Below, piece by piece: positions 4,375 to 21,592 of a DNA stretch of 64,000 nucleotides. A program made the position numbers and the translations under genes. Below the pieces are notes generated by a model that saw only the letters and a program-made list of their open reading frames with translations, had not been told where the DNA came from and ran no database searches. Source of the stretch: Scytonema millei VB511283 (GTDB taxonomy: Bacteria; Cyanobacteriota; Cyanobacteriia; Cyanobacteriales; Chroococcidiopsidaceae); assembly GCF_000817735.3 (NCBI RefSeq), contig NZ_JTJC03000005.1, positions 1-64,000 of the forward strand, in the 5' to 3' direction. Positions within the stretch are counted from its first letter, which is position 1. Every line of letters starts with the position of its first letter.

Positions 4375-4678
4375 TGAAAGTCCTGTTTTAGCAAGATCGA
4401 AAAAAATCGCAAGCCTATCGAAACAATTCTCATAGTAAGGCTTGCTGGATTTTTATAAGCTTTTCTCTAGCGGACAAAATAAAAGTCAGTTATCAGTTGA
4501 CAGTTATCAGTTATCAGTGACCAGTTAATTCTGACTTGCGACTTGCGACTAGTAACCAGTAACCAGTTATCAGTGACCTGTTAACCGTCAACCGTCAACC
4601 GTTAACCGTCAACTACCAATTACCACGCACCACTCCATCAATCCCTGTTTGCATCCCAAATATCTTTTAGCTCTCCGT
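4375..4678. repeat. Intergenic region with heptanucleotide-type repeats
   Basis: There is no gene here. From about 4483 to 4630 the DNA is a patchwork of near-7-bp direct repeats based on CAGTTATCAGT, CCGTCAA and GTAACCA variants. These are short tandemly repeated repetitive sequences common in filamentous and Chroococcidiopsis-type cyanobacteria. The segment 4381-4460 before them shows no recognisable signal. The trpEG promoter must lie within this stretch, but I cannot point to a convincing -35/-10 pair. Confidence 0.6.
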
Positions 4679-6874
4679 ATGATCCCTGATTCCCACTGCT
4701 ATATAACCGAAGGCGGTATTCGCGTTTCTTACTCTACCACTGAGATTCCAGTCGATTCTGCGATCGCAGAGGTGTTATTGCAACTCAATTCTCAGCGGGG
4801 AGGGGTATTGACGAGTAGCTATGAGTATCCTGGGCGTTACAAGCGATGGGCGATTGGCTTTGTCAATCCACCCTTGGAACTTGCTACCCGTGAGAATGCT
4901 TTTACTCTGACGGCGCATAACGATCGCGGTGCGGTTTTATTGCCATATTTGGCGGCGCGTTTATCTGAAGACGCACAATTAGAAACAGTTCAGCTAGAAA
5001 ACAGTTGTATTGTTGGCACGGTTAAATTAGCTGAAAGATTATATTCTGAGGAAGAACGCAGCAGACAACCATCTGTCTTCACCGTAATTCGTCAGTTGTT
5101 ACATACTTTTCACAGTAGCGAAGACGATCGCTTAGGCTTGTATGGTGCTTTCGGCTACGACTTAGTATTTCAGTTTGAGTCGATGCCGAAGTTGCATTCT
5201 CGTCCCACCGACCAACGAGACTTAGTATTATATTTGCCGGACGAACTGGTCGTTGTCGATCGCTATCAACAAAGTGCGTTTCGCTATCAGTACGAGTTTG
5301 AGATAGACAACAGCAGCACCAGAGGTTTACCGCGTACAGGTGAATCTATGGATTATCAGGGTCAACATTTAACTCCAACTCAAGATTGCGATCGCGCCCC
5401 TGGTGAATATGCTCAACTAGTACGAGAAGCACTAGGCTACTTTCAAAGAGGCGATCTATTTGAAGTTGTTCCCAGCCAAACTTTTTTTGCTGCTTGCGAA
5501 GCGTCTCCCTCGCAATTATTTCAAACATTACAGCAAGTCAATCCCAGTCCCTACGGGTTTATTTTTAACTTAGGTCACGAATATTTAATTGGTTCGTCTC
5601 CAGAAATGTTCGTGCGGGTGGAAGGTAAGCATATTGAAACCTGCCCGATTAGCGGCACAATCGAGCGCGGACAGGATGCGATCGAAGATGCGGAACAAAT
5701 TCGTCAGTTGCTCAACTCCCGCAAAGATGAAGCCGAACTAACGATGTGTACTGATGTCGATCGCAACGATAAATCGCGGATTTGCGAACCCGGATCGGTA
5801 CAAGTGATCGGTCGCCGCCAGATCGAATTGTACAGTCACCTGATTCATACAGTCGATCACGTAGAAGGACAACTGCGACCGGAGTTCGATGCTTTAGATG
5901 CCTTTTTAACACACACTTGGGCAGTAACGGTGACAGGCGCACCCAAACGCGCTGCAATGCAGTTTATCGAGCGGCACGAACCGAGTTCTCGGCGTTGGTA
6001 TGGCGGTGCAGTTGGCTGGTTAAACTTCAACGGTAACTTAAATACAGGGCTGATTTTACGCACGATTAGATTGCAAGATGCGATCGCCGAAGTCAGAGTT
6101 GGCGCTACCGTCTTGTATGACTCAATTCCAGAGGCAGAAGCGCAAGAAACTATTACGAAAGCTGCTGCCATGTTTGAAACCATCAACCGCGCTCATCAGA
6201 TCGGCGACGATTTGTCAAGTAAAACAAAAAAATTAACAAGCGATCGCCCTCAACAGCGTCCATACGTGCTGCTGATTGACTACGAAGACTCCTTCGTTCA
6301 CACCCTCGCGAACTACATTCGCCAAACTGGGGCGATCGTCAAAACGCTACGCCACGGCTTTAGCGAAACAGTTTTCGACACCGAGCGTCCAGATTTGGTA
6401 GTGTTTTCGCCGGGTCCTGGCAGACCGAGTGATTTTCGCGTTCCAGAAACAGTTTTAGCCTGTGTCAAGCGGCAACTTCCGATCTTTGGTGTTTGTCTAG
6501 GACTGCAAGGAATTGTCGAAGCTTTTGGCGGAGAACTAGGAGTCTTGAATTACCCTCAACACGGCAAAGTTTCTCGCGTGTTTGTTACGGATTCAGAGTC
6601 TCATTTGTTCGAGGACTTACCAACATCATTTGAAGTGGGTAGATACCATTCATTATTTGCGCTACCAAAACTTTTACCTTCAGATTTAAAAGTTACAGCA
6701 ATTTCTCATGACGACGTAATTATGGGCATCGAACATAGAGAAATGCCAATTGCCGCAGTTCAATTTCACCCCGAATCAATCATGACCCTAACCGGAGACA
6801 TTGGTTTAAAAATTGTCACAAATATTGTTGGCAATTATGCAAAACTGCAAGCATCAAAATCTGTTGTTAGGTAA
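4679..6874 (+). CDS. trpE: Anthranilate synthase, fused TrpE-TrpG (component I plus glutamine amidotransferase)
   Basis: This single 731-residue protein converts chorismate and glutamine to anthranilate. Residues 1 to about 520 are the chorismate-binding component I, with SSYEYPGRYKRWAIGF near residue 50, PISGTIERG, DVDRNDKSRICEPGSV and VTGAPKRAAMQ. After a short linker, residues from about 535 form a class I glutamine amidotransferase (LLIDYEDSFVHTLANYI, SPGPGRPSD, nucleophile Cys in FGVCLGLQG, His-Glu in QFHPES). Fused TrpEG is known from rhizobia and some cyanobacteria. The frame opens at a TTG (4649), but the ATG at 4679 gives the family start MIPDSHCYITEGGIRVS. It heads a co-directional cluster with trpC, trpA, trpB, a DAHP synthase and trpD. 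Confidence 0.96.
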   Translation: MIPDSHCYITEGGIRVSYSTTEIPVDSAIAEVLLQLNSQRGGVLTSSYEYPGRYKRWAIGFVNPPLELATRENAFTLTAHNDRGAVLLPYLAARLSEDAQLETVQLENSCIVGTVKLAERLYSEEERSRQPSVFTVIRQLLHTFHSSEDDRLGLYGAFGYDLVFQFESMPKLHSRPTDQRDLVLYLPDELVVVDRYQQSAFRYQYEFEIDNSSTRGLPRTGESMDYQGQHLTPTQDCDRAPGEYAQLVREALGYFQRGDLFEVVPSQTFFAACEASPSQLFQTLQQVNPSPYGFIFNLGHEYLIGSSPEMFVRVEGKHIETCPISGTIERGQDAIEDAEQIRQLLNSRKDEAELTMCTDVDRNDKSRICEPGSVQVIGRRQIELYSHLIHTVDHVEGQLRPEFDALDAFLTHTWAVTVTGAPKRAAMQFIERHEPSSRRWYGGAVGWLNFNGNLNTGLILRTIRLQDAIAEVRVGATVLYDSIPEAEAQETITKAAAMFETINRAHQIGDDLSSKTKKLTSDRPQQRPYVLLIDYEDSFVHTLANYIRQTGAIVKTLRHGFSETVFDTERPDLVVFSPGPGRPSDFRVPETVLACVKRQLPIFGVCLGLQGIVEAFGGELGVLNYPQHGKVSRVFVTDSESHLFEDLPTSFEVGRYHSLFALPKLLPSDLKVTAISHDDVIMGIEHREMPIAAVQFHPESIMTLTGDIGLKIVTNIVGNYAKLQASKSVVR

Positions 6875-6983: not shown

Positions 6984-7031
6984 GATTTTTGACTTTTGAC
7001 TTTTGACTTACCTCTCACACCCGAATTTTCA

Positions 7032-7892
7032 ATGGCTACTATTGAAATCAATCATCAGGTTGCATCTAACAGTAAATCGCGTCATATTTTGACTGAAATT
7101 GTGTGGCATAAACAGCAAGAAGTCGCGCAAATGCAGGCAGATATGCCATTAGCTGAGTTACAAAAACAGGTCAGCGATACACCGTGGGCAGAAGACTTTT
7201 TGATGGCGATCGAGCAAAGCGATCGCCAACCAAGTTTGATTGCCGAAGTCAAAAAAGCATCGCCAAGTAAAGGAGTTATCTGTGCTGACTTCGACCCGGT
7301 AAAAATTGCCCAAGCATACCAACAAAGCGGCGCAACCTGTATTTCAGTTTTGACCGATCGCAAATTCTTTCAAGGCAGTTTTGACAATCTGCGGAAAATT
7401 CGGCAAAGCATGGCACTACCGCTCTTATGCAAAGAGTTCGTTATCGATCCGTATCAAATTTATTTGGCGCGGGCTGCTGGAGCAGATGCAGTATTGCTAA
7501 TTGCAGCCATTTTATCAGATAGCAGTTTGCAAAACTTTTTAAAAATAGCTCATGAATTGGGCATGACTGCTCTAGTTGAAGTACACACACTTGGCGAACT
7601 CGATCGCGTGCTAGCACTATCCGATGTGCGCCTGATTGGAATTAACAATCGCAATCTAGAAAACTTTCACGTCGATTTGGAAACAACACGGCTACTGATG
7701 GCACAGCGTCGGCAACAAATTAGCGATTTGGGCATTACCGTTGTCAGCGAGTCTGGTTTACATACATCTGAAGATTTATCCCTGGTTGCCAACGCTGGCG
7801 TTCGTGCAGTCTTAGTCGGAGAGTCGCTCGTTAAACAACCCGATATCGAACAAGCTGTACGGAAACTGTTGAAAACAGGGAGCAGGGAGTAG
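7032..7892 (+). CDS. trpC: Indole-3-glycerol phosphate synthase
   Basis: The 286-residue TIM-barrel enzyme closes the indole ring in tryptophan biosynthesis (CdRP to indole-3-glycerol phosphate). Visible family motifs are [15 protein letters not shown] with the catalytic lysine, [59 protein letters not shown] and [13 protein letters not shown]. The frame opens at a TTG at 6996, but those codons come from repeat DNA; the ATG at 7032 gives [15 protein letters not shown], a normal beginning. Its length is normal for a stand-alone TrpC, so there is no trpF fusion, and no trpF is present in the cluster. Confidence 0.97.
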
Positions 7893-7991
7893 GGAGCAGG
7901 GAGCAGAGATGAGTAAATTTTCTCTCCCTTGTCTCCTTGTCCCCTTGTCCCCTTGTCCCCTTGTCCCCTAATTCTTTCCCTAGCCCCTCTT

Positions 7992-8804
7992 ATGATCTCC
8001 GATCGCTTCCAATCTTTACGCAGCCGCCAAGAGTGCGCTTTGATTCCTTTTATTACAGCTGGCGATCCTTACTTAGAAACGACGGCTGAAGCTTTATATA
8101 TTCTCGATCGCCACGGCGCAGATTTCATCGAGTTGGGCGTTCCCTATGCCGATCCACTGGCTGATGGACCCGTCATTCAAGCAGCGGCGACCCGTGCGTT
8201 GCAAAGAGGTACGCGCTTAGAGCAGGTGCTAGAAATGGTAGCAACTGTCAGCCCTAACCTCAAAGCACCGTTGATTTTATTTACCTACTACAACCCGATT
8301 TTAAACCGAGGCGTTCGTGCCTTTTGCCAACAAATTGCCAGCGCTGGGGTGCGGGGGTTAGTCGTGCCAGATTTACCTCTAGAAGAAGCGACAGAGTTAA
8401 TTCAAGCTGCGGCTGATTCTGGCATTGAGACCACCTTACTCGTAGCACCTACCAGCTCTCCCGAAAGGATAGCCGCGATCGCTCGTCAATCGCAAGGTTT
8501 TATCTACCTGGTCAGCGTTACGGGTGTAACGGGGGTGCGATCGCACCTACAAGAACGGGTCAAAACTTTGCTAACAGATATGCGCCGCATTACCGATAAA
8601 CCGATTGGTGTTGGTTTTGGGATTTCTGGAGCCGAACAAGCGCGTCAGGTCAAAGATTGGGGCGCAGATGCGGCGATCGTCGGTAGTGCATTTGTCAAAC
8701 ATTTAGCAGCCGCAAACTCAACTGAAGGATTGCAGGCGATCGCTCAATTGTGTCGAGAACTAAAAGCGGCAGTTACAACTACTTCGCTCATGGTTAACAG
8801 TTAA
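7992..8804 (+). CDS. trpA: Tryptophan synthase alpha subunit
   Basis: The 270-residue TIM barrel cleaves indole-3-glycerol phosphate to indole, which is channelled to TrpB. The catalytic glutamate lies in [20 protein letters not shown] and the catalytic aspartate in the usual family position. [38 protein letters not shown] and [11 protein letters not shown] are all family motifs. The open frame extends upstream to 7929 through a CCCCTTGT repeat, but that is not protein-like; the ATG at 7992 ([20 protein letters not shown]) is the family start. It lies 99 bp after trpC and 85 bp before trpB. Confidence 0.97.
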
Positions 8805-8889: not shown

Positions 8890-10137
8890 GTGGTTAGCAT
8901 CAGAGAAACTCATAATCTTTCAGCACAAGTACAACCCGATTCCCTGGGTCGGTTTGGGCGTTTCGGTGGTAAGTACGTGCCGGAAACATTAATGCCTGCA
9001 TTAACCGAGCTAGAAGCAGCCTACGCGCAATATCGGGTCGATCCCAGCTTTCAGGCTGAGTTGCAACAACTACTGCATGATTATGTTGGCAGACCTACCC
9101 CTTTGTATTTTGCCGAGCGTCTGACTCAACACTACCAGCGACCCGATGGCACGGGAGCGCAGATTTATTTAAAGCGGGAAGACTTAAACCATACAGGCGC
9201 TCACAAAATTAACAATGCTCTCGCTCAAGTTTTATTAGCAAAACGGATGGGCAAGCAAAGAATTATTGCCGAGACGGGAGCGGGTCAGCATGGAGTTGCA
9301 ACTGCTACTGTTTGCGCTCGCTTTGGCTTGCAGTGCATCGTCTACATGGGCATCCACGATATGGAACGGCAAGCCCTGAACGTATTTCGGATGCGGCTGA
9401 TGGGGACGGAGGTGCGCCCAGTAGAGGCAGGTACGGGAACTTTAAAAGATGCAACTTCGGAGGCAATTCGAGATTGGGTCACAAACGTAGAATCAACTCA
9501 TTATATTTTGGGTTCTGTCGCTGGTCCTCATCCCTATCCGATGATGGTACGAGACTTTCATGCCGTTATTGGTACAGAAACTCGCGCCCAATGTCAGCAA
9601 AAATGGGGCGGGTTGCCAGATATTCTCTTAGCCTGCGTCGGGGGAGGTTCTAACGCAATTGGAATGTTTTACGAATTTGTCAACGAACCAACAGTCCGGT
9701 TAATTGGAGTTGAAGCAGCAGGGGAAGGAGTCAGCACGGCAAAACACGCAGCAACTCTCACGCAAGGACGAATTGGCGTGTTGCATGGTGCAATGAGCTA
9801 CTTACTTCAAGACGAAGACGGTCAAGTTGTAGAAGCACATTCAATTAGTGCTGGACTAGACTATCCAGGAGTGGGTCCCGAACACAGCTATTTAAAGGAT
9901 ATCGGACGCGGCGAATATTACAGCGTCACGGACGCACAAGCATTAGATGCATTCAAGAATTTGGCTCAATTAGAAGGGATTATTCCAGCTTTAGAAACTG
10001 CCCACGCGATCGCTTATTTAGATATTCTCTGTCCGCAATTAAGTGGCAGTCCGCGTATTGTCATCAACTGCTCTGGACGTGGCGATAAGGACGTACAAAC
10101 TGTCGTGAAGTTAGGGACAGTTATCAGTGACGAGTGA
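8890..10137 (+). CDS. trpB: Tryptophan synthase beta subunit
   Basis: The 415-residue PLP enzyme condenses indole with serine. The PLP lysine sits in [20 protein letters not shown], the phosphate-binding glycine loop is [12 protein letters not shown], and [30 protein letters not shown] and [11 protein letters not shown] are TrpB1-type signatures. The start is GTG at 8890; the extra 20 or so residues before [17 protein letters not shown] are normal for cyanobacterial TrpB. It directly follows trpA on the same strand, so an alpha2beta2 complex encoded by neighbouring genes is expected. The intergenic 8805-8889 is a repeat patchwork (TTAACAG/CCGTCAA units). Confidence 0.97.
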
Positions 10138-10208: not shown

Positions 10209-11291
10209 ATGATCGTAGTATTAAAAAATGGTACGCCAGAAATGGAAATTACTCACCTCAGCGACGAGTTGAGTAGTTGGGGTTTGAAAGTAGAAAAAAG
10301 TGTTGGCAAACACAAAATTGTCCTCGGTTTAGTTGGGAACACAGTTGAATTAGATCCGTTTCGAGTCCAAGAACTCAGCCCTTGGATCGAACAAGTCGTG
10401 CGGGTCGAACAACCATTCAAGCGCGTCAGCCGCGAGTTTCGCCACGGCGAACCCAGTGAAGTCGTTGTATCAACTCCAAATGGTTTCGTCCCTTTTGGAG
10501 AACACCACCCGCTCGTAACGATCGCAGGTCCTTGCTCGGTAGAAAACGAAGAGATGATCGTGTATACCGCACAAAGAGTCAAGGCAGCGGGCGCAAAGTT
10601 CCTGCGCGGTGGTGCTTACAAACCTCGTACATCCCCTTATGCATTTCAAGGTCATGGCGAGAGTGCTTTAAATTTACTTATTGCAGCCCGCGATGCAACG
10701 GGTTTAGGAATTATCACTGAAGTCATGGACACTGCCGATCTAGACAAAGTTGCAGCCGTGGCTGATATCGTACAGGTTGGGGCGAGAAATATGCAGAATT
10801 TTCCCCTCCTCAAGAAGGTAGGAGCGCAAGATAAACCAGTCTTCCTCAAGCGGGGAATGTCAGCCACGATTGAAGAGTGGCTGATGGCAGCCGAATATAT
10901 TATGGCAGCAGGCAACCCGAATGTAATTCTCTGCGAACGGGGTATTCGCGGTTTCGATCGCCAGTACGCACGCAATACACTCGATTTATCAGTTATTCCC
11001 GTGTTGCGATCGCTCACCCATCTACCAATCGCGATCGATCCCAGCCACGGTACGGGTAAAGCCGAGTACGTCCCCTCAATGGCAATGGCAGCGATCGCAG
11101 CAGGTACTGACTCACTCATGATCGAAGTCCATCCCAATCCCGCCAAAGCTTTATCCGATGGACCTCAATCACTCACTCCCGAACGGTTCGATTCCTTGAT
11201 GCAAGAACTCGCCGTTGTCGGTAAAGCCATGAATCGCTGGACGCAAAAATCAGTTAACAATTATCAGTTACCAGTGGTCAGTGGAAAGTGA
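10209..11291 (+). CDS. aroF: 3-deoxy-7-phosphoheptulonate synthase (DAHP synthase, AroF type I-beta)
   Basis: The 360-residue enzyme joins phosphoenolpyruvate and erythrose-4-phosphate, the first step of the shikimate pathway. Residues 1-75 form the ferredoxin-like N-terminal domain (MIVVLKNGTPEMEITHLSDE). The catalytic barrel follows with VTIAGPCSVENEEMIVYTA, KFLRGGAYKPRTSPYAFQG, DIVQVGARNMQNFPLL, KRGMSATIEEW and IDPSHGTGK. Its place between trpB and trpD suggests a dedicated isoform that raises chorismate supply for tryptophan or a tryptophan-derived product. The start has AGGAAAATTCAC just upstream. The last 10 codons (VNNYQLPVVSGK) come from repeat DNA, so the natural C-terminus may have been extended. 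Confidence 0.96.
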   Translation: MIVVLKNGTPEMEITHLSDELSSWGLKVEKSVGKHKIVLGLVGNTVELDPFRVQELSPWIEQVVRVEQPFKRVSREFRHGEPSEVVVSTPNGFVPFGEHHPLVTIAGPCSVENEEMIVYTAQRVKAAGAKFLRGGAYKPRTSPYAFQGHGESALNLLIAARDATGLGIITEVMDTADLDKVAAVADIVQVGARNMQNFPLLKKVGAQDKPVFLKRGMSATIEEWLMAAEYIMAAGNPNVILCERGIRGFDRQYARNTLDLSVIPVLRSLTHLPIAIDPSHGTGKAEYVPSMAMAAIAAGTDSLMIEVHPNPAKALSDGPQSLTPERFDSLMQELAVVGKAMNRWTQKSVNNYQLPVVSGK

Positions 11292-11408: not shown

Positions 11409-12404
11409 ATGATGCAAATACCGCGATCGCGAGAACAAGCACGTCAGGTGATGGAATATCTCTTGTCGGGTGAAGCTGAATTAAATGAAATTATCAGCTT
11501 TTTACAAACTCGACCAGTAGCGGATGCTCAAACTCAAGAACTACTGGGATATCGCGATGTCCTTTGGGATAGAAGGCGACGGGCGAACTTTGGGCATGTC
11601 GATATTGATATTGTTGGTACTGGCGGGGTACGCCGACCGCGCTATAACGTTTCTACCACGGCAGCATTTATTGTCGCTGCTTTGGGGATTCGAGTTGCTA
11701 AGCATGGTAATCGAGGCTCGGTTAAACCTAATGGTTCCTGCGATCTGCTGGAAGTTTTGGGAATTTCTTTAACAACGATGACAGCGCGTGCTGTTGAAAG
11801 TTTGGCAACCACTGGGTTGAGTTTTCTATTTGCGCGGGATTGGCATCCAGCTTTTAAGGCGATCGCAGCTGCTAGAGCTGAAGTCGGTTATCCTACTGTG
11901 TTTAATCTATTAGGACCATTACTCAATCCCAGCCAACCCAAACATCAACTTGTCGGTTGTGGCGATCCAGCAGTAGCGCAAATTATTGCGGAAACTTTGA
12001 TGGAGTTGGGGATAGAGGCTTTAGTTGTTACCGGTTCAGATGGACTAGATGAAATCACCTTAGCAGGTGCTTCTCAAGTTATAGAAGTACGGGGCGATCG
12101 CATCAGTGTAAAACAAATCGTACCTGAAGAGTTCGGTATGGAAACTGTCCCAGAATTGGAGTTAGCTGGAGGCAATGCTACAGATAACGCCGCAGAATTT
12201 CTCGCTATTCTTAGTGGACAGGGACGAAAATCGCTAGTCGATCTTGTAACCTTAAATGCAGCCTTTGCACTGTGCCTAGTAGATAAAAATTACGATGTAG
12301 AATCAGCAATTCGTACTATCAGAAATGTATTGATTGATAGTACTGCCAAGACATTTTTTCTCCAGTTTCGCGAGTTCGTCATGGCTAAGCAATTAGCTAT
12401 TTAG
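11409..12404 (+). CDS. trpD: Anthranilate phosphoribosyltransferase family protein (divergent TrpD)
   Basis: The 331-residue protein has the fold signatures of TrpD: NVSTTAAFIVAALGIRVAKHGNRGS, PNGSCDLLEVLGI, GLSFLFARDWHPAFKAI, GYPTVFNLLGPLLNP and ALVVTGSDGLDEITLAG. TrpD attaches phosphoribosyl from PRPP to anthranilate. The PRPP-binding loop, normally GTGGDG followed by x-F/V-NIST, reads GTGGVRRPRYNVST here, so the usual Asp-Gly is replaced by Val-Arg. It may be a paralogue with altered kinetics or substrate. The ATG-ATG start at 11409 follows a CCCCTCAT stretch; no strong Shine-Dalgarno is seen. It closes the aromatic cluster. Confidence 0.85.
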   Translation: MMQIPRSREQARQVMEYLLSGEAELNEIISFLQTRPVADAQTQELLGYRDVLWDRRRRANFGHVDIDIVGTGGVRRPRYNVSTTAAFIVAALGIRVAKHGNRGSVKPNGSCDLLEVLGISLTTMTARAVESLATTGLSFLFARDWHPAFKAIAAARAEVGYPTVFNLLGPLLNPSQPKHQLVGCGDPAVAQIIAETLMELGIEALVVTGSDGLDEITLAGASQVIEVRGDRISVKQIVPEEFGMETVPELELAGGNATDNAAEFLAILSGQGRKSLVDLVTLNAAFALCLVDKNYDVESAIRTIRNVLIDSTAKTFFLQFREFVMAKQLAI

Positions 12405-12488: not shown

Positions 12489-13193
12489 ATGGCTCAATCT
12501 AATAGTGAAGATTTTTGGTTTAGTCCGCTTTTCCGCATAGCTGGTTATGTTTTATTGGCTTTGTCGCTTTTAGATATTATTAGTGTTTTTATTCCTCCAG
12601 GTTTTACCAATCCTGCATGGGAATTTCAAATGGCAAGCCATCTAGTTGAGCGATCGCCTGTGCCATTAATTGGATTAGTTTTTCTCTTGATTGGCGAGAA
12701 AAACTTTAAAATCTTCAAGTTTTTGTCTAGAGCGGCTTTGGTAGCTGGCATATTGTTTCTATTGCTACTACCTCTAATTGTCAGTTCTGCTTGGCGAATA
12801 CACGAAGGAGGCGATCGCCAAATTGCCCAACAATCAGCACAGCTTCAAAGTATCAAGCAACAACTCAGTCAAGCTCAAACAGATAGAGAAATTACAGATA
12901 CATTGTCTCGGTTTAATCTACGAATTAATGCACCGAAAGCTCAAAATCCTCAGCAATTAAAAAGTCAAATTCTTGCTGGAATTGTTAATTCTGAGAAGAA
13001 ATTCCAAGCACAAGCAGCACAAAATACAGCCAATAGTCTTAACTTGACAAAAAATGTCATAAAAACTGGCTTGGGAACCTTAATTGCTGGAGCTTTTTTC
13101 CTAATGGTTTGGCGCGGTACTGCCAATACAGTCAAAGGTAGTCAAAAAAGCAAGCAAAAACTTAGTAATAATCTGCCACTTGTAAACGAATAA
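12489..13193 (+). CDS. HpsJ-like membrane protein
   Basis: The 234-residue protein has N-terminal hydrophobic segments at about 14-35, 58-72 and 83-103, a middle coiled-coil-like Gln-rich stretch (QQSAQLQSIKQQLSQAQTDRE) and a last membrane segment near 190-210. The opening FWFSPLFRIAGYVLLALSLLDIISVFIPP followed by NPAWEFQMASHLVERSPVPLIGLVFL is characteristic of the HpsJ family, named from hormogonium polysaccharide loci and often found with cyanobacterial exosortase systems. The exact role is unknown. The start has AAGAGGTAAG 8-10 nt upstream. Only 6 bp separate its stop from the next gene, which suggests co-transcription with the acidic protein there. Confidence 0.72.
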   Translation: MAQSNSEDFWFSPLFRIAGYVLLALSLLDIISVFIPPGFTNPAWEFQMASHLVERSPVPLIGLVFLLIGEKNFKIFKFLSRAALVAGILFLLLLPLIVSSAWRIHEGGDRQIAQQSAQLQSIKQQLSQAQTDREITDTLSRFNLRINAPKAQNPQQLKSQILAGIVNSEKKFQAQAAQNTANSLNLTKNVIKTGLGTLIAGAFFLMVWRGTANTVKGSQKSKQKLSNNLPLVNE

Positions 13194-13199
13194 CATAGT

Positions 13200-13646
13200 A
13201 TGCTTGACAACAGCAGTGCTGCTAGTGATGACACTGGTAATAACAGCGATACTTTGCTAGGTTCGCCTTTCGACCGCTTCAGTGAATCTCTCGAACTAGA
13301 CGGTTCGAGTGACATTTTTGGTAGTAGCGATTCGTTCGATCGCAATGCCAATGATGAAGATATTTCTCCTATGAGTAACGATTTACTCTATGGTGGCAAT
13401 CCTTTTGCTGGTGACAATTTTTGGAATATCTTTGCTGACGAGAACAATCCGAATAGTGGCAATTTTCCCGATCCGATTGGCAGCGAGTGGAATTTCAGTG
13501 GTGCAGCTACTCCGAGTCAAATCTTAACTATTAGTAATGACGCGATCGTAGTTCCTCATAGCGATGAGTACAATAATTTATTGCTAAATGCATCTCAAGC
13601 TCAAGCCAGTCTCAACACAAATTCAGATTCGGTAATTTGGCTATAA
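13200..13646 (+). CDS. Acidic Asn/Ser/Asp-rich protein of unknown function, short paralogue of the GNGNW-repeat protein
   Basis: I do not recognise a known family. The 148-residue product is acidic and rich in Ser, Asp, Asn and Gly, with no membrane segment or signal peptide. Residues 64-79 (YGGNPFAGDNFWNIFA) are identical to residues 74-89 of the 602-residue protein encoded downstream. Its SPFDRFSESLELDGSSDIFG segment corresponds to the SPFGxLSEVL...IFSG modules of that protein. It starts 6 bp after the HpsJ-like gene, so it probably shares its mRNA. It looks like a head-only version lacking the 14-residue repeats. Low complexity makes function prediction unsafe. Confidence 0.65.
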   Translation: MLDNSSAASDDTGNNSDTLLGSPFDRFSESLELDGSSDIFGSSDSFDRNANDEDISPMSNDLLYGGNPFAGDNFWNIFADENNPNSGNFPDPIGSEWNFSGAATPSQILTISNDAIVVPHSDEYNNLLLNASQAQASLNTNSDSVIWL

Positions 13647-14009
13647 CCATATTAGAGACGTTGCAAGACGTAATTTGAAATAACCAATAAGCTGCATCAT
13701 GACTTGCGGTTTATTGGTTTTAGATCGATTAGAAAAAAATAAATAACAAATTACTCGAAAGATTCGTCACTGACAATCATGTCTTACGAAGTATAGACTA
13801 TTTTAGGATCGAATACAGTATTAATTAATACTGCAATTATACTCGTATTTCAATTACCAACTCTTAGCAAATCAGTTCTGATAGCAAAAGAAGTATTTTT
13901 TGCAAAGACAACGCGCGAAAAGTCAGCAATTAATACTAGTTAATTTCTGGACATATAGAATATTTTTGCCATTTAGAACTCTGTACTAGTAATTAGGAGA
14001 AGTAGTTTC
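13647..14009. other. 363-bp A/T-rich gap between the two acidic-protein genes
   Basis: I see no gene in this stretch. It is A/T-rich, and some short direct and inverted similarities (AATAACCAATAA, TTTATTGGTTTT) are visible. The 3' end carries a good ribosome-binding site, AGGAGAAG, 10-12 nt before the ATG at 14010. This suggests that the 602-residue protein has its own promoter within the gap, although no clear -10/-35 pair can be assigned. Confidence 0.5.
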
Positions 14010-15818
14010 ATGTCCACCTCTGAGTCTAACTCTTTTGAACCAGAGAATGATGGTTCCTCTGGCGACGCAAACGATTTACTACTACAATCACCTTTTGGTC
14101 GCTTAAGTGAAGTCTTAGATGTTGAGGATCTTGCCAATATTTTTAGTGGTGTTGGTGATGCTGCTGATAGCAGTAACGCAGAGAATCCATTTGCTGGTGA
14201 TAACCCCAATTCAGAAAGCGATTTAGCTTACGGTGGCAATCCTTTTGCTGGTGATAACTTTTGGAATATCTTCGCTGGTGGTGTTAATCCAGGTGCAGGG
14301 GATAATCCATTTACTAGTGCTGAAAGTCCTCTAGTTAGCGAAGACAATACTACTAGTAGCGATAATCTCGTCCCTACTCAAAACGATCTTTCCTCTACCG
14401 ATTTAAATAACCTACTGCAACAGTCGCCATTTGGTCCTTTAAGTGAAGTTCTAGGCGATGAAGGTCTTACAACCATCTTTAGCGGTATTGGTACTCCTCC
14501 TGAAGGCAGTACCGATTCCTCTACTGACAGCAACAATCCACCTACAGGTAGCGGAGATAGCAACCCGCTTGCTGGAGGTAGCAATCCTTTTATCAATACT
14601 GATAGCCTGAGTACCAGTGGTAGTAGCACGTACCATGACAATAACAACACTATTACTGGTAGCGGTAATTGGATATTTGCTAATGGAGACTGGCAGCAAT
14701 TAATCGATCCTAATTCCTCTAGTGAGGGTAACTCGCCTTTTGGTAACGACCCCACCCTTCAGGGTGCGATCGCATACTTCAAAGGTAACGGCTCAACCCC
14801 TGATGATACATCGTCTTCTAGCGATAGTCATAGCAACCTTGCCTTTAACAATCTACCCATACCTATTAATAATAGTGACTGGCTGAAGAGTCTTACCGAT
14901 TTAGCCGATCCTGAAAGTGCGGCTAGTGCTACTAATAATAGAACTATTGGCAATGGCAACTGGCATTATGGTAGTGGTAATGAAGTTGTTGGTAACGGTA
15001 ACTGGCTTTTTGCTAGTTATAACGATCTGCTTGGTAACGGCAACTGGTATTACGCTGACGATAACGCAACTGTTGGCAATGGTAACTGGTACTTTGGCGG
15101 GGAGAATGCAACCATTGGTAACGGTAATTGGCTTTTTGCTGATGTCAACGAAACTATTGGTAACGGTAACTGGTACTTTGATGATGCTAATAAAACCGTT
15201 GGAAATGGCAACTGGCATTTCGGTAGCGACAATGCAACGATTGGCAATGGCAACTGGTATTTCGGCAGCGGTAATGCAACGATTGGCAATGGCAACAGGT
15301 TCAGTGGTAACGATAACTTAGTTATTGGTAATCCTTTAGCGAATGGCTTCAAGGATATTGGTGACAGGAAGCTAGTCATTGGTAACAGCGATTGGACGTT
15401 TGTTACCGATCGCAATGCTATTAGCGATGAGGTTGACAGCTTGCTAACGAGTAGTTTGGGAAATTTCTATAGTAGCGATGCCGATAATAACCAAATTAGT
15501 CAAGGTATTGACTCGCTGATCGATCGAGTCGGTAAAGACTTTTTGAGTTTACTCGGTAGTGGTTGGACTGCCGATCCATCAACAACGACTCCAAGTATTG
15601 ACATGAATGAAAGCATTTTTAGCGATCGCCCAGCTAATACCGAACTAGATATTAGCATTAACTCTTTAGCCGAACAAATCAAACAAGATTTACTCACGTC
15701 GCTTGGTAGCGGTTCCCCTTCTGGGCAAACAGAATTGACTCAAACCACAGAAGGCAACCTCTTCAATAGCGAGAATTTTCTCGCCTCTTTTAACTCCGAT
15801 CTCACAACTACTAACTAA
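14010..15818 (+). CDS. GNGNW-repeat protein: acidic protein with nine tandem 14-residue repeats, unknown function
   Basis: I do not recognise a named family. The 602-residue product begins with acidic low-complexity sequence holding two copies of an SPFGxLSEVL...IFSG module (about residues 28-46 and 131-150) and the YGGNPFAGDNFWNIFA motif at 74-89. From residue 312 to 437 there are nine consecutive 14-residue units, consensus T-I/V-GNGNW-Y/H/L-F-x4-NA, then degenerate copies to about 465. Such regular Gly-Asn-aromatic repeats suggest a beta-roll or beta-solenoid, which is inference. The C-terminal third has two similar amphipathic segments (EVDSLLTSSLGNF, GIDSLIDRVGKDFLSLLGSG, SINSLAEQIKQDLLTSLGSG). 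There is no signal peptide and no membrane segment. AGGAGAAG upstream supports the ATG. Possible roles are secreted matrix or filament protein. Confidence 0.75.
   Translation: MSTSESNSFEPENDGSSGDANDLLLQSPFGRLSEVLDVEDLANIFSGVGDAADSSNAENPFAGDNPNSESDLAYGGNPFAGDNFWNIFAGGVNPGAGDNPFTSAESPLVSEDNTTSSDNLVPTQNDLSSTDLNNLLQQSPFGPLSEVLGDEGLTTIFSGIGTPPEGSTDSSTDSNNPPTGSGDSNPLAGGSNPFINTDSLSTSGSSTYHDNNNTITGSGNWIFANGDWQQLIDPNSSSEGNSPFGNDPTLQGAIAYFKGNGSTPDDTSSSSDSHSNLAFNNLPIPINNSDWLKSLTDLADPESAASATNNRTIGNGNWHYGSGNEVVGNGNWLFASYNDLLGNGNWYYADDNATVGNGNWYFGGENATIGNGNWLFADVNETIGNGNWYFDDANKTVGNGNWHFGSDNATIGNGNWYFGSGNATIGNGNRFSGNDNLVIGNPLANGFKDIGDRKLVIGNSDWTFVTDRNAISDEVDSLLTSSLGNFYSSDADNNQISQGIDSLIDRVGKDFLSLLGSGWTADPSTTTPSIDMNESIFSDRPANTELDISINSLAEQIKQDLLTSLGSGSPSGQTELTQTTEGNLFNSENFLASFNSDLTTTN
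14943..15320 (+). repeat. Nine tandem 42-bp units encoding 14-residue GNGNW repeats
   Basis: The units are exactly 42 bp with no indels. They encode residues 312-437 of the acidic protein. The invariant core is G-N-G-N-W (G-N-G-N-R in the ninth), preceded by two aliphatic or Thr residues and followed by an aromatic pair and a variable Asx/Gly-rich tail. Codon choices differ between units (GGTAACGGTAAC and GGCAATGGCAAC alternate), so the array is not a very recent expansion; selection seems to keep the protein pattern. Confidence 0.9.
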
Positions 15819-15825
15819 AAATCGG

Positions 15826-15867
15826 TTTTCCTGTAGAGACGTTCCATGGAACGTCTCTACAGGAAAA
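15826..15867. terminator. Perfect 42-bp palindrome 8 bp after the GNGNW-repeat gene
   Basis: Both 21-bp arms are fully complementary, with the centre at CCATGG (TAGAGACGTTCC inverted to GGAACGTCTCTA). An A-run follows on the plus strand and a T-rich flank lies on the other side, so it could act as a bidirectional terminator. The same TAGAGACGTT core recurs at 18381-18406, 24826-24853 and 41823-41852, so it belongs to a dispersed palindromic family. Confidence 0.8.
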
Positions 15868-17001: not shown

Positions 17002-17193
17002 GTAAGTTTTTAACAGGTTTTGATATCAACATTTTCATTTTACCTGTTTATCTCTAACTTCTGTTCACGATTGGCTTAGACTCGCTATATAGAAGAGGAA
17101 AGATAGGAGCGATCGCATAACTATTCTATATGCAATTAAAACAAGCTCCCACAACGGAGTTAAAAAGGAGGCGAGAGATTCCCCCTTTTTAAG

Positions 17194-18353
17194 GGCAGGG
17201 CTGATCTATGGAAAAAAGGAAAATAGACGGCGCATATCGTGAGCTAAATGACGTATCCCTTGGGTAATCGAGTCAAAGCCATTGAAGCGCAAAAGATTGA
17301 GCGCAATGGTTCGCACAATCGCAAAATTGACAGTGGCATGACCATCACATCAGGGAGAGTAATCTTCCTGAAGTAACACATCTTTAATCCAATGGAGGCG
17401 ATTTTCAATCTGCAACGCGAGAACGAATTAGTTGTGCAAAATCAGCCGCATCAACTGCCAAAGAACTGAGATAAAACATCGTTTCGCTCAACGGCTGGTT
17501 TGCTCTGGTGCCAGCACGTTCGACCCGAATCATCCGTTGTACTCCCAACCAATGCGGTTCGATACCAGCCATCGTGTCCAAAATACTGACTGTCCTTTGA
17601 GTGCATCGGTCGCGGCACTGTTCGGTTTGGATGTCTACACTCAGAGGCGGCATTTGCTCAAACTGAGTCCTCAAATACGCCAGTAATTTCGGTTGGTTGG
17701 CTTTAACGGCGATGACATAGTGATTGCCACTAGCGATGATTTGCCCGACTGTTTTTTTGGGTGTGTAGCGCATCCAAACTGAAGCAAACACCCTCCAGTT
17801 GTAGCTTGTTCAACAACAGCTCAACTGTTTTTCTTTCACTGGTTTGATGATTTCGCATCGATTCTAAACCTATCACCACACCTTGAGCGACACTAAAAGC
17901 AGATACCACACTGACAAAATCTTGATAGCAGGAGTCGTAGTCGCTCAAACTGGCTTTGATGCTCTTGCCATCGGTGGCAATTTGCTCATGGGGCATCGGC
18001 ACAAACGTCTCTTGCATCCATGCATTAAATGCTTCGGTTAATGACTCAAAATCTACCCTGACCATGATTCGGCGAATCGTCGATAAGCTGGGCAGTCGTC
18101 GGTTCGGCAACCCCAACAACTCTAACAATACCGCTTGATGGCGTGACACACAGTCGGCTAAAGGGCGATATCCATTGCAACCACTCATCTTTCCCATTGT
18201 GATTAACACTAACACCACCCATAAGGGATATCGCGGCTGAGCGCGCAAATCTTTGACTTGTTGAAGATGCGAGTAGCAGGCTCATTAGACCAAGGATGCG
18301 ATTTAACTACTCCTCCATTATTGATTTTCTCTGGTCAATAGATCAGCCCTGCC
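17194..18353 (-). mobile_element. ISAs1-family insertion sequence remnant, about 1.16 kb
   Basis: The ends are perfect 16-bp inverted repeats, GGCAGGGCTGATCTAT at 17194-17209 and its complement at 18338-18353, which fit ISAs1-type termini. The flanks are the two halves of a CCCCCTTTTTAAGG/GGGGGTTAGGGGGGATC dispersed repeat, so the IS seems to have inserted into one. I see no clean target duplication. The transposase inside is broken at three places, so the copy is unlikely to move by itself. Confidence 0.85.
17206..18269 (-). pseudogene. ISAs1-family transposase pseudogene
   Basis: Reading on the minus strand, HLQQVKDLRAQPRYPLWVVL and MGKMSGCNGYRPLADCV begin a typical ISAs1/H-repeat transposase, followed by ATDGKSIKAS with a catalytic Asp and CFSLDALHTQK. 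A frame change in an A7 run near 17755 moves to KTVGQIIASGNHYVIAVKAN. A second frame change near 17405 leads to ENRLHWIKDVLLQEDYSP. That is followed by an in-frame TGA near 17357, then a recognisable tail (FNGFDSITQGIRHLAHDMRR) ending at 17206. No ATG is found at the expected N-terminus. The three lesions make it non-functional unless frameshifting is invoked more than once. Confidence 0.85.
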
Positions 18354-18361
18354 TTCAAAAG

Positions 18362-18425
18362 GGGGTTAGGGGGGATCTAGTAGAGACGTTACGTGTAACG
18401 TCTCTACTAGATCCCCCCTAACCCC
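18362..18425. repeat. 64-bp near-perfect palindrome (31-bp arms, 2-nt loop) upstream of psbH
   Basis: The left arm 18362-18392 begins GGGGTTAGGGGGGATCTAG and ends GACGTTAC; the right arm 18395-18425 is its exact complement. The inner part is a TAGAGACGTTAC-family palindrome. The outer part is the GGGGGGATC end of the repeat that the ISAs1 copy entered. It would form a very stable hairpin or cruciform and probably terminates transcription coming from the IS. Confidence 0.85.
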
Positions 18426-21085: not shown

Positions 21086-21592
21086 ATGCTCAAACAGTTT
21101 TTGACAGGTGGTTCTGTTCTCGCCCTATTGCTCGTAGGCGGTTTCTCAGCTCAAGCAAAGCCACAAACATCAGTCTTATTACAAGCTCAAACCCAGGAAG
21201 TACCTACTACTCCCGATACTCAAACAACTCCACCGGCAGGGACACTTGATCCTGGTACAAGCCCAGAAGGAACGACTACACCGGATACGACTGTACCTGA
21301 TGCAACTACACCGGATACGACTACACCGGATACGACTGTACCTGATGCAACTACACCGGATACGACTACACCGGATACGACTACGCCTGACGTAACTCCT
21401 GATGCAGGTACGCCCGAAACCACGAGTCCTGATGCTACGACTAGCCCCGATGCTAGCGATACGTCTACCCCTGAGTCGCAAACCTCAACTCCTGACTCTA
21501 ATACCGATAGAGCTGCAATATTTTGCGAATCCAATCCGGTAAATAGTCCAACTGGAGGCGGCGCGCGACAATTTCGTGAATGCCAGCAATAG
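21086..21592 (+). CDS. Secreted Thr-Pro-Asp-rich low-complexity protein
   Basis: The 168-residue product has a clear signal peptide (MLKQFLTGGSVLALLLVGGF, cleavage probably after SAQA at about residue 24). A spacer region follows, built almost entirely of T-T-P-D-T and V-P-D-A units (residues about 40-140), and then a short C-terminal part with two cysteines (IFCESNPVNSPTGGGARQFRECQQ) that could form a disulfide. The repeat unit at DNA level is ACTACACCGGATACG, repeated several times. An extracytoplasmic linker or wall-associated function is plausible but unproven. A strong AAAGGAGACAG Shine-Dalgarno supports the start. Confidence 0.8.
   Translation: MLKQFLTGGSVLALLLVGGFSAQAKPQTSVLLQAQTQEVPTTPDTQTTPPAGTLDPGTSPEGTTTPDTTVPDATTPDTTTPDTTVPDATTPDTTTPDTTTPDVTPDAGTPETTSPDATTSPDASDTSTPESQTSTPDSNTDRAAIFCESNPVNSPTGGGARQFRECQQ

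Follow-up and report, generated by a model that had tools for sequence, protein, structure and literature searches.

Scytonemin is a widespread extracellular sunscreen of cyanobacteria. Redundant trp and aro genes make up the downstream half of its gene cluster (PMC2726228), N. punctiforme depends on cyanoexosortase B for scytonemin, and the pathway by which the pigment is exported, including the outer-membrane route, is undefined (PMC12188702); genes beyond the known ones may also be involved (Bennett and Soule 2022, PMC8879130). The described genes comprise scyA-F, the ebo genes, the trp/aro module, and NpR1259, which closes the N. punctiforme cluster and encodes a membrane protein for which two transmembrane segments are predicted, and none of those in the literature searched encodes a protein like the one reported here. 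Two further groups of proteins are close to it in other respects. YadA-type heads (YadA, BoaA, BpaC, UspA1, AtaA, and CbpF) are left-handed parallel beta-rolls in which each 14-residue layer contains an invariant glycine and adds a rise of 4.8 Å (PMC9543794), while PEP-CTERM proteins, the substrates of exosortases, include ScyD, ScyE, and ScyF and carry signal peptides in 97% of cases (Haft et al., PMC1569441).

The gene studied here, P2, lies in a window of 64,000 nucleotides from Scytonema millei VB511283 (the whole stretch of DNA analyzed), and its family shares clusters, direction, and genomes with the scytonemin genes. On the forward strand, the window carries a TrpE-clade anthranilate synthase of the scytonemin-type aromatic module (TrpEG fusion, 4649..6874; TIGR01815, 1183 bits), trpC (6996..7892), trpA (7929..8804), trpB (8890..10137, identified by its translation and by a search for copies; redundant, with a second, 85% identical one elsewhere in the genome), the DAHP synthase gene aroG (10209..11291), and trpD (11409..12404). 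These are followed, on the same strand, by an HpsJ-like, cyanoexosortase A-associated gene (12489..13193; NF050013, E = 7e-63, 212 bits against a cut-off of 140), by P1 (13200..13646), which encodes a 148-amino-acid partner with a NPFAGDNFWNIF motif, and last by P2 (14010..15818), which encodes an acidic protein of 602 residues with a GNGNW array and has AGGAG just 5' of its ATG. The block from trpE to trpD is the detached half of the scytonemin cluster, with P2 at its end. The scyA-B-C-E-F-ebo core of the same genome is on another contig, C7, where scyB, scyC, and eboB-F were named by order and appearance and where the exosortase CrtA is also found with its own HpsJ. This link to the scytonemin gene cluster, which the first-pass annotation missed and which emerged from the neighbors of P2 and its relatives, is the main point of our analysis. 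NpR1259 may correspond to the HpsJ-like neighbor of the P1-P2 pair, which is a guess on our part.

The same association recurs in other arrangements. Aliterella has the order scyF-P1-P2-eboA-eboB-eboC (ScyF 538 bits, cut-off 350), and in Microseira a fusion of P1 and P2, also seen in UBA11371, comes next after scyF. The pair follows trp/aro genes in Nostoc sp. JL33 (L043), Dendronalium (L060), Nostoc sp. CHAB 5844 (L061), Rivularia (L041), and Plectonema (L062), and in many Nostoc genomes the P2 gene is distant from the scy cluster. P1 stands ahead of P2 in most loci. The gap between them (13646-14010) is 115 bp in Aliterella, whereas the window and many Nostoc loci share a length of about 350-365 bp; it is possibly a conserved regulatory region, and since it had no match in Rfam, an RNA element was not found there. 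A second, related pair on contig C6 of the same genome (L073:8121-9649, G000:C6) encodes proteins of 156 and 310 residues, a weaker paralog whose repeats read T-D/S/N-GNGNW, the Ile ahead of the glycine being replaced by polar residues, and whose neighbors include no scytonemin genes.

On the other side of P2, a perfect, terminator-like 42-bp palindrome lies just 3' of the stop codon (15826..15867, forward strand); a related half-site is present at 18380-18400, and the palindrome may be terminator-like or a dispersed element. Two insertion-sequence remnants directly 3' of P2 (15891-17090, starting 73 bp after the P2 stop codon, and 17182-18365) have terminal inverted repeats with arms of 29 and 41 nt and split transposase ORFs. 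Further downstream, at 21086-21592, a small, secreted-looking protein carries a Thr/Pro-rich repeat, TTPDTTxPDA, with a 15-bp DNA period.

P2 has 79 Asp/Glu residues against 14 Lys/Arg and a pI of 4.05. Its N-terminal region, residues 1-311 (14010..14942, forward strand), is mostly disordered by prediction (pLDDT under 50), contains short helical QSPFGxLSEVL segments and no signal peptide, and is itself P1-like, sharing a NPFAGDNFWNIFA motif with P1 (homology to P1, E = 1e-12). The array spans residues 312-437 (14943..15320, forward strand), and the C-terminal region, residues 438-602 (15321..15815, forward strand), begins with decayed IGN units beyond residue 437, continues with two helical segments, SLIDRVGKDFLSLLGSG and SLAEQIKQDLLTSLGSG, and ends without a PEP-CTERM tail. 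The nine units of 14 residues without indels that had first been described in this acidic frame were confirmed: GNGN starts at residues 314, 328, 342, 356, 370, 384, 398, 412, and 426, every interval is 14, zero indels separate the units, and when the residues of the protein were shuffled 2000 times, GNGN occurred 0.14 times on average and at most twice. The GNGNW consensus originally given applies to eight units, the ninth reading GNGNR, and a stray GSGNW occurs at residues 216-220. The exact period applies to the window protein, whereas relatives also have 16-residue units (36 of 185 distinct units), with the 2 extra residues in the loop after the Phe.

Selection rather than recent copying had been proposed to keep this pattern, and the codons agree. 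At sites with the same residue, codons differ in 48% of cases between adjacent units and 51% between nonadjacent ones, compared to 52% for random draws from the gene. With codon choice between units close to random, the array is old, and a recent tandem duplication of units is rejected because the codons are saturated. In comparisons with two congeners, the array has a dN/dS of 0.07 and the rest of P2 one of 0.17-0.23, and purifying selection maintains the old array. The dS of the array against the congeners, 0.42-0.47, is 2-4 times that of the remaining gene (0.12-0.22), which is perhaps due to gene conversion between units.

No named family accounts for the repeat, in line with the first-pass annotation: the whole protein had zero matches in Pfam at E values up to 10, zero matching models in NCBIfam, and zero relatives among solved sequences, and a literature search found "GNGNW" in no relevant paper. 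The P2 family is undescribed in the protein-family libraries and literature searched. A profile of the array built from 29 relatives and run against solved sequences gave weak matches, the best being the ice-binding protein of Lolium perenne (top, E = 0.05), AtaA, and BoaA, with EibD and UspA1 lower, and all of these are left-handed beta-rolls. In AlphaFold2 predictions of the array with the C-terminal region (five single-chain models, mean pLDDT 50 to 81), the array reaches a pLDDT of about 92, with short strands recurring at intervals of about 7 residues. The array model aligns with CbpF at Z 16.1, with the Lolium protein (3ult) at Z 14.6, and with YadA at Z 13.7, the YadA-type heads falling at Z 12-16; 3ult is the closest solved fold by rmsd (1.1 Å over 111 residues, 28% identity), and both it and the P2 model have two N-x-x-x-G half turns per coil. 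The full-length AlphaFold model has a mean pLDDT of 42, with the array and a few helices emerging and the N-terminal half disordered, and for this reason we make no claim on the fold of that half. From these models and the weak profile matches, the array is very probably a left-handed beta-roll, and the original guess of a beta-roll or solenoid is well supported. The register of the Lolium and YadA proteins, applied to P2, would place T(-2) and x5 inward and Trp4 and Phe6 outward, although the often polar x5 argues for the opposite.

The lead toward YadA-type autotransporters, also given at first, stands for the fold of the head and fails for membership. What P2 has in common with these proteins is a left-handed beta-roll head of 14-residue coils, seen in AlphaFold prediction only. 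A trimeric autotransporter is rejected because the signal is absent and so is the YadA anchor barrel, with no Pfam match and a C terminus predicted to be helical or disordered. P2 further differs from YadA-type heads in its Trp/Phe strand, in the PEP-CTERM-like C-terminal tail of its relatives, and in its cyanobacterial scytonemin context. From the Lolium protein it differs in having aromatic rather than small residues in one strand, in its multipart architecture, and in kingdom, and the sequence similarity between the two is not significant (E = 0.05).

Relatives of P2 occur in the same genus (two congeners, 92-93% identity), Aliterella, many Nostoc, Rivularia, Plectonema, Microseira, and others, and have in common low-complexity NPFAGG arms, the array, and a helical segment, SLIGKIGQxF. 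The absence of a motif, signal peptide, or membrane segment noted for the window copy is correct for that copy, whereas its relatives usually end in a PEP/transmembrane tail: 35 of 43 have a hydrophobic C-terminal segment followed by basic (Lys/Arg) residues, usually with VPEP, intact or decayed, ahead of the segment. Four relatives were scanned with the TIGR02595 PEP-CTERM model; L007 and L012 reach the cut-off, L046 is just under it, and L013 matches only a different CTERM model, and weakly. At the Nostoc loci L032-L056, the PEP motif is degraded to SEP, PES, TES, or SES and the Glu, the hydrophobic helix, and a KKQQxC tail are retained. The window protein, its two congeners, Rivularia, and Plectonema lack the tail; the window genus has lost it, and P2 there would be a released or nonanchored form.

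The PEP-type motif, hydrophobic helix, and basic tail of its relatives, together with a gene placed beside scyF or near HpsJ, make the P2 family resemble the exosortase substrates. In contrast to the large majority of PEP-CTERM proteins, none of the 43 members has a signal peptide or a hydrophobic N-terminal stretch, with ScyF positive as a control by the same measure. Shine-Dalgarno-like sequences precede the chosen start in 41 of 43, which makes missed starts unlikely. The window genome encodes the exosortase CrtA (C7:91548-92333, 260 bits, cut-off 150). CrtA co-occurs only weakly with the array (5 of 11 array genomes); a specific tie of P2 to cyanoexosortase A is weak and is set aside, even though HpsJ_A adjoins it here.

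Across genomes, the array follows the scytonemin genes. Among 386 genomes sampled from the phylum, array and ScyF occur together in 9, the array alone in 2, ScyF alone in 2, and neither in 373 (P = 6e-15), and among 193 Nostocaceae, counting strong array matches, the corresponding numbers are 79, 2, 18, and 94 (P = 1e-33), both P values being too small since they ignore the relatedness of genomes. Independent of these values is the repeated physical linkage in differing arrangements: in 36 of the 81 Nostocaceae genomes with the array, 14-30 kb separate it from scyF. All three genomes with the array and without ScyF have ScyA, which in G199 and G527 is 4 and 14 kb from the array, respectively; in G287, ScyA has three stop codons and the array gene is short, and both look decayed. 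A strong array is absent from 18 of the 97 Nostocaceae genomes with ScyF, and P2 is therefore probably dispensable for making scytonemin. Given its place in or at the end of clusters in several lineages and this co-occurrence, we are highly confident that P2 is tied to the scytonemin gene system.

We lean toward the reading that P2 belongs to the scytonemin system as a protein of the cell surface or sheath, where it retains the pigment or lays it down. This reading is suggested by the combination of a narrow rod of aromatic repeats, flexible arms, and helical ends with a link to a system whose flat pigment is stored in exopolysaccharide. Judging from the tails of its relatives and from its neighbors, P2 is likely to be located outside the cytoplasmic membrane. 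Each 14-residue unit would form one coil, at 4.8 Å per coil by analogy with solved rolls, and nine coils would stack to a length of about 4 nm, a rod along which Trp and Phe/Tyr form columns and which is set between the flexible low-complexity N-terminal arm and the helical segments. P2 and its partner P1, aided by the HpsJ/cyanoexosortase machinery, would reside at the cell surface or in the sheath, where we hypothesize that P2 binds exopolysaccharide and/or the flat aromatic pigment; such binding would keep or deposit scytonemin in the sheath. The matrix or surface role first suggested is plausible and is favored by the HpsJ neighbor and by the PEP-CTERM tails seen in relatives. Several findings weaken the sheath reading: the absence of a signal peptide in all 43 members, which leaves export unexplained, the lack of a PEP-CTERM tail in the window protein, the weak co-occurrence with CrtA, the ScyF genomes without a strong array, the many Nostoc P2 genes far from the scy cluster, and the C6 paralog. 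More speculatively, and with considerable doubt, the exported beta-roll may be a dedicated scytonemin scaffold whose columns of regularly spaced Trp and Phe residues hold the planar indolic pigment in stacks and anchor it in the sheath, leaving the cell by an exosortase-linked route that is free of signal peptides.

An accessory role in scytonemin maturation or export, played in the periplasm or at the outer membrane as a partner of ScyE/ScyF or of an outer-membrane route and not as part of the sheath, appears unlikely. It would agree with the position of P2 between scyF and eboA in Aliterella, both periplasm-facing modules, and with the dimerization of scytonemin, which is periplasmic and ScyE dependent and is followed by the undefined export route (PMC12188702). 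Nevertheless, P2 has no enzyme-like domain, its low-complexity arms and repeat rod look structural, and it is missing where ScyF is present in the 18 genomes above, whereas ScyE is essential in N. punctiforme. Somewhat less likely again is that P2 serves as a general exopolysaccharide or surface matrix protein whose link to scytonemin arises merely because its hosts live on exposed surfaces. Both HpsJ and PEP-CTERM systems have ties to exopolysaccharide, and the C6 paralog has no scytonemin neighbors, but shared habitat alone hardly explains linkage within 30 kb of scyF in varied arrangements, and the joint decay in G287 is hard to obtain from it.

That P2 works inside the cytoplasm, or on the inner face of the cytoplasmic membrane, aiding precursor supply beside the trp/aro genes is very unlikely: a signal peptide is found in no relative and the window protein has no membrane tail, but the charge pattern of the PEP/hydrophobic/Lys-rich tail of the relatives places the preceding domain outside, and P2 is also found beside scyF and ebo and not only beside trp genes. 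Most improbable is a Lolium-like beta-roll that binds ice or protects against freezing or desiccation, since, although 3ult is its closest solved fold and top profile match, the second strand of the P2 roll carries Trp and Phe, whereas small Thr, Val, or Ser residues are typical of ice-binding faces, and the distribution of P2 tracks the scytonemin genes.

The P2 family puts a YadA-type roll outside the autotransporters and is a rare PEP-CTERM-like group that lacks signal peptides, a combination relevant to the means by which exosortase substrates can be exported. Conserved, clustered with the scytonemin genes, and unannotated, this family is a direct candidate for the steps by which scytonemin leaves the periplasm and is retained in the sheath.
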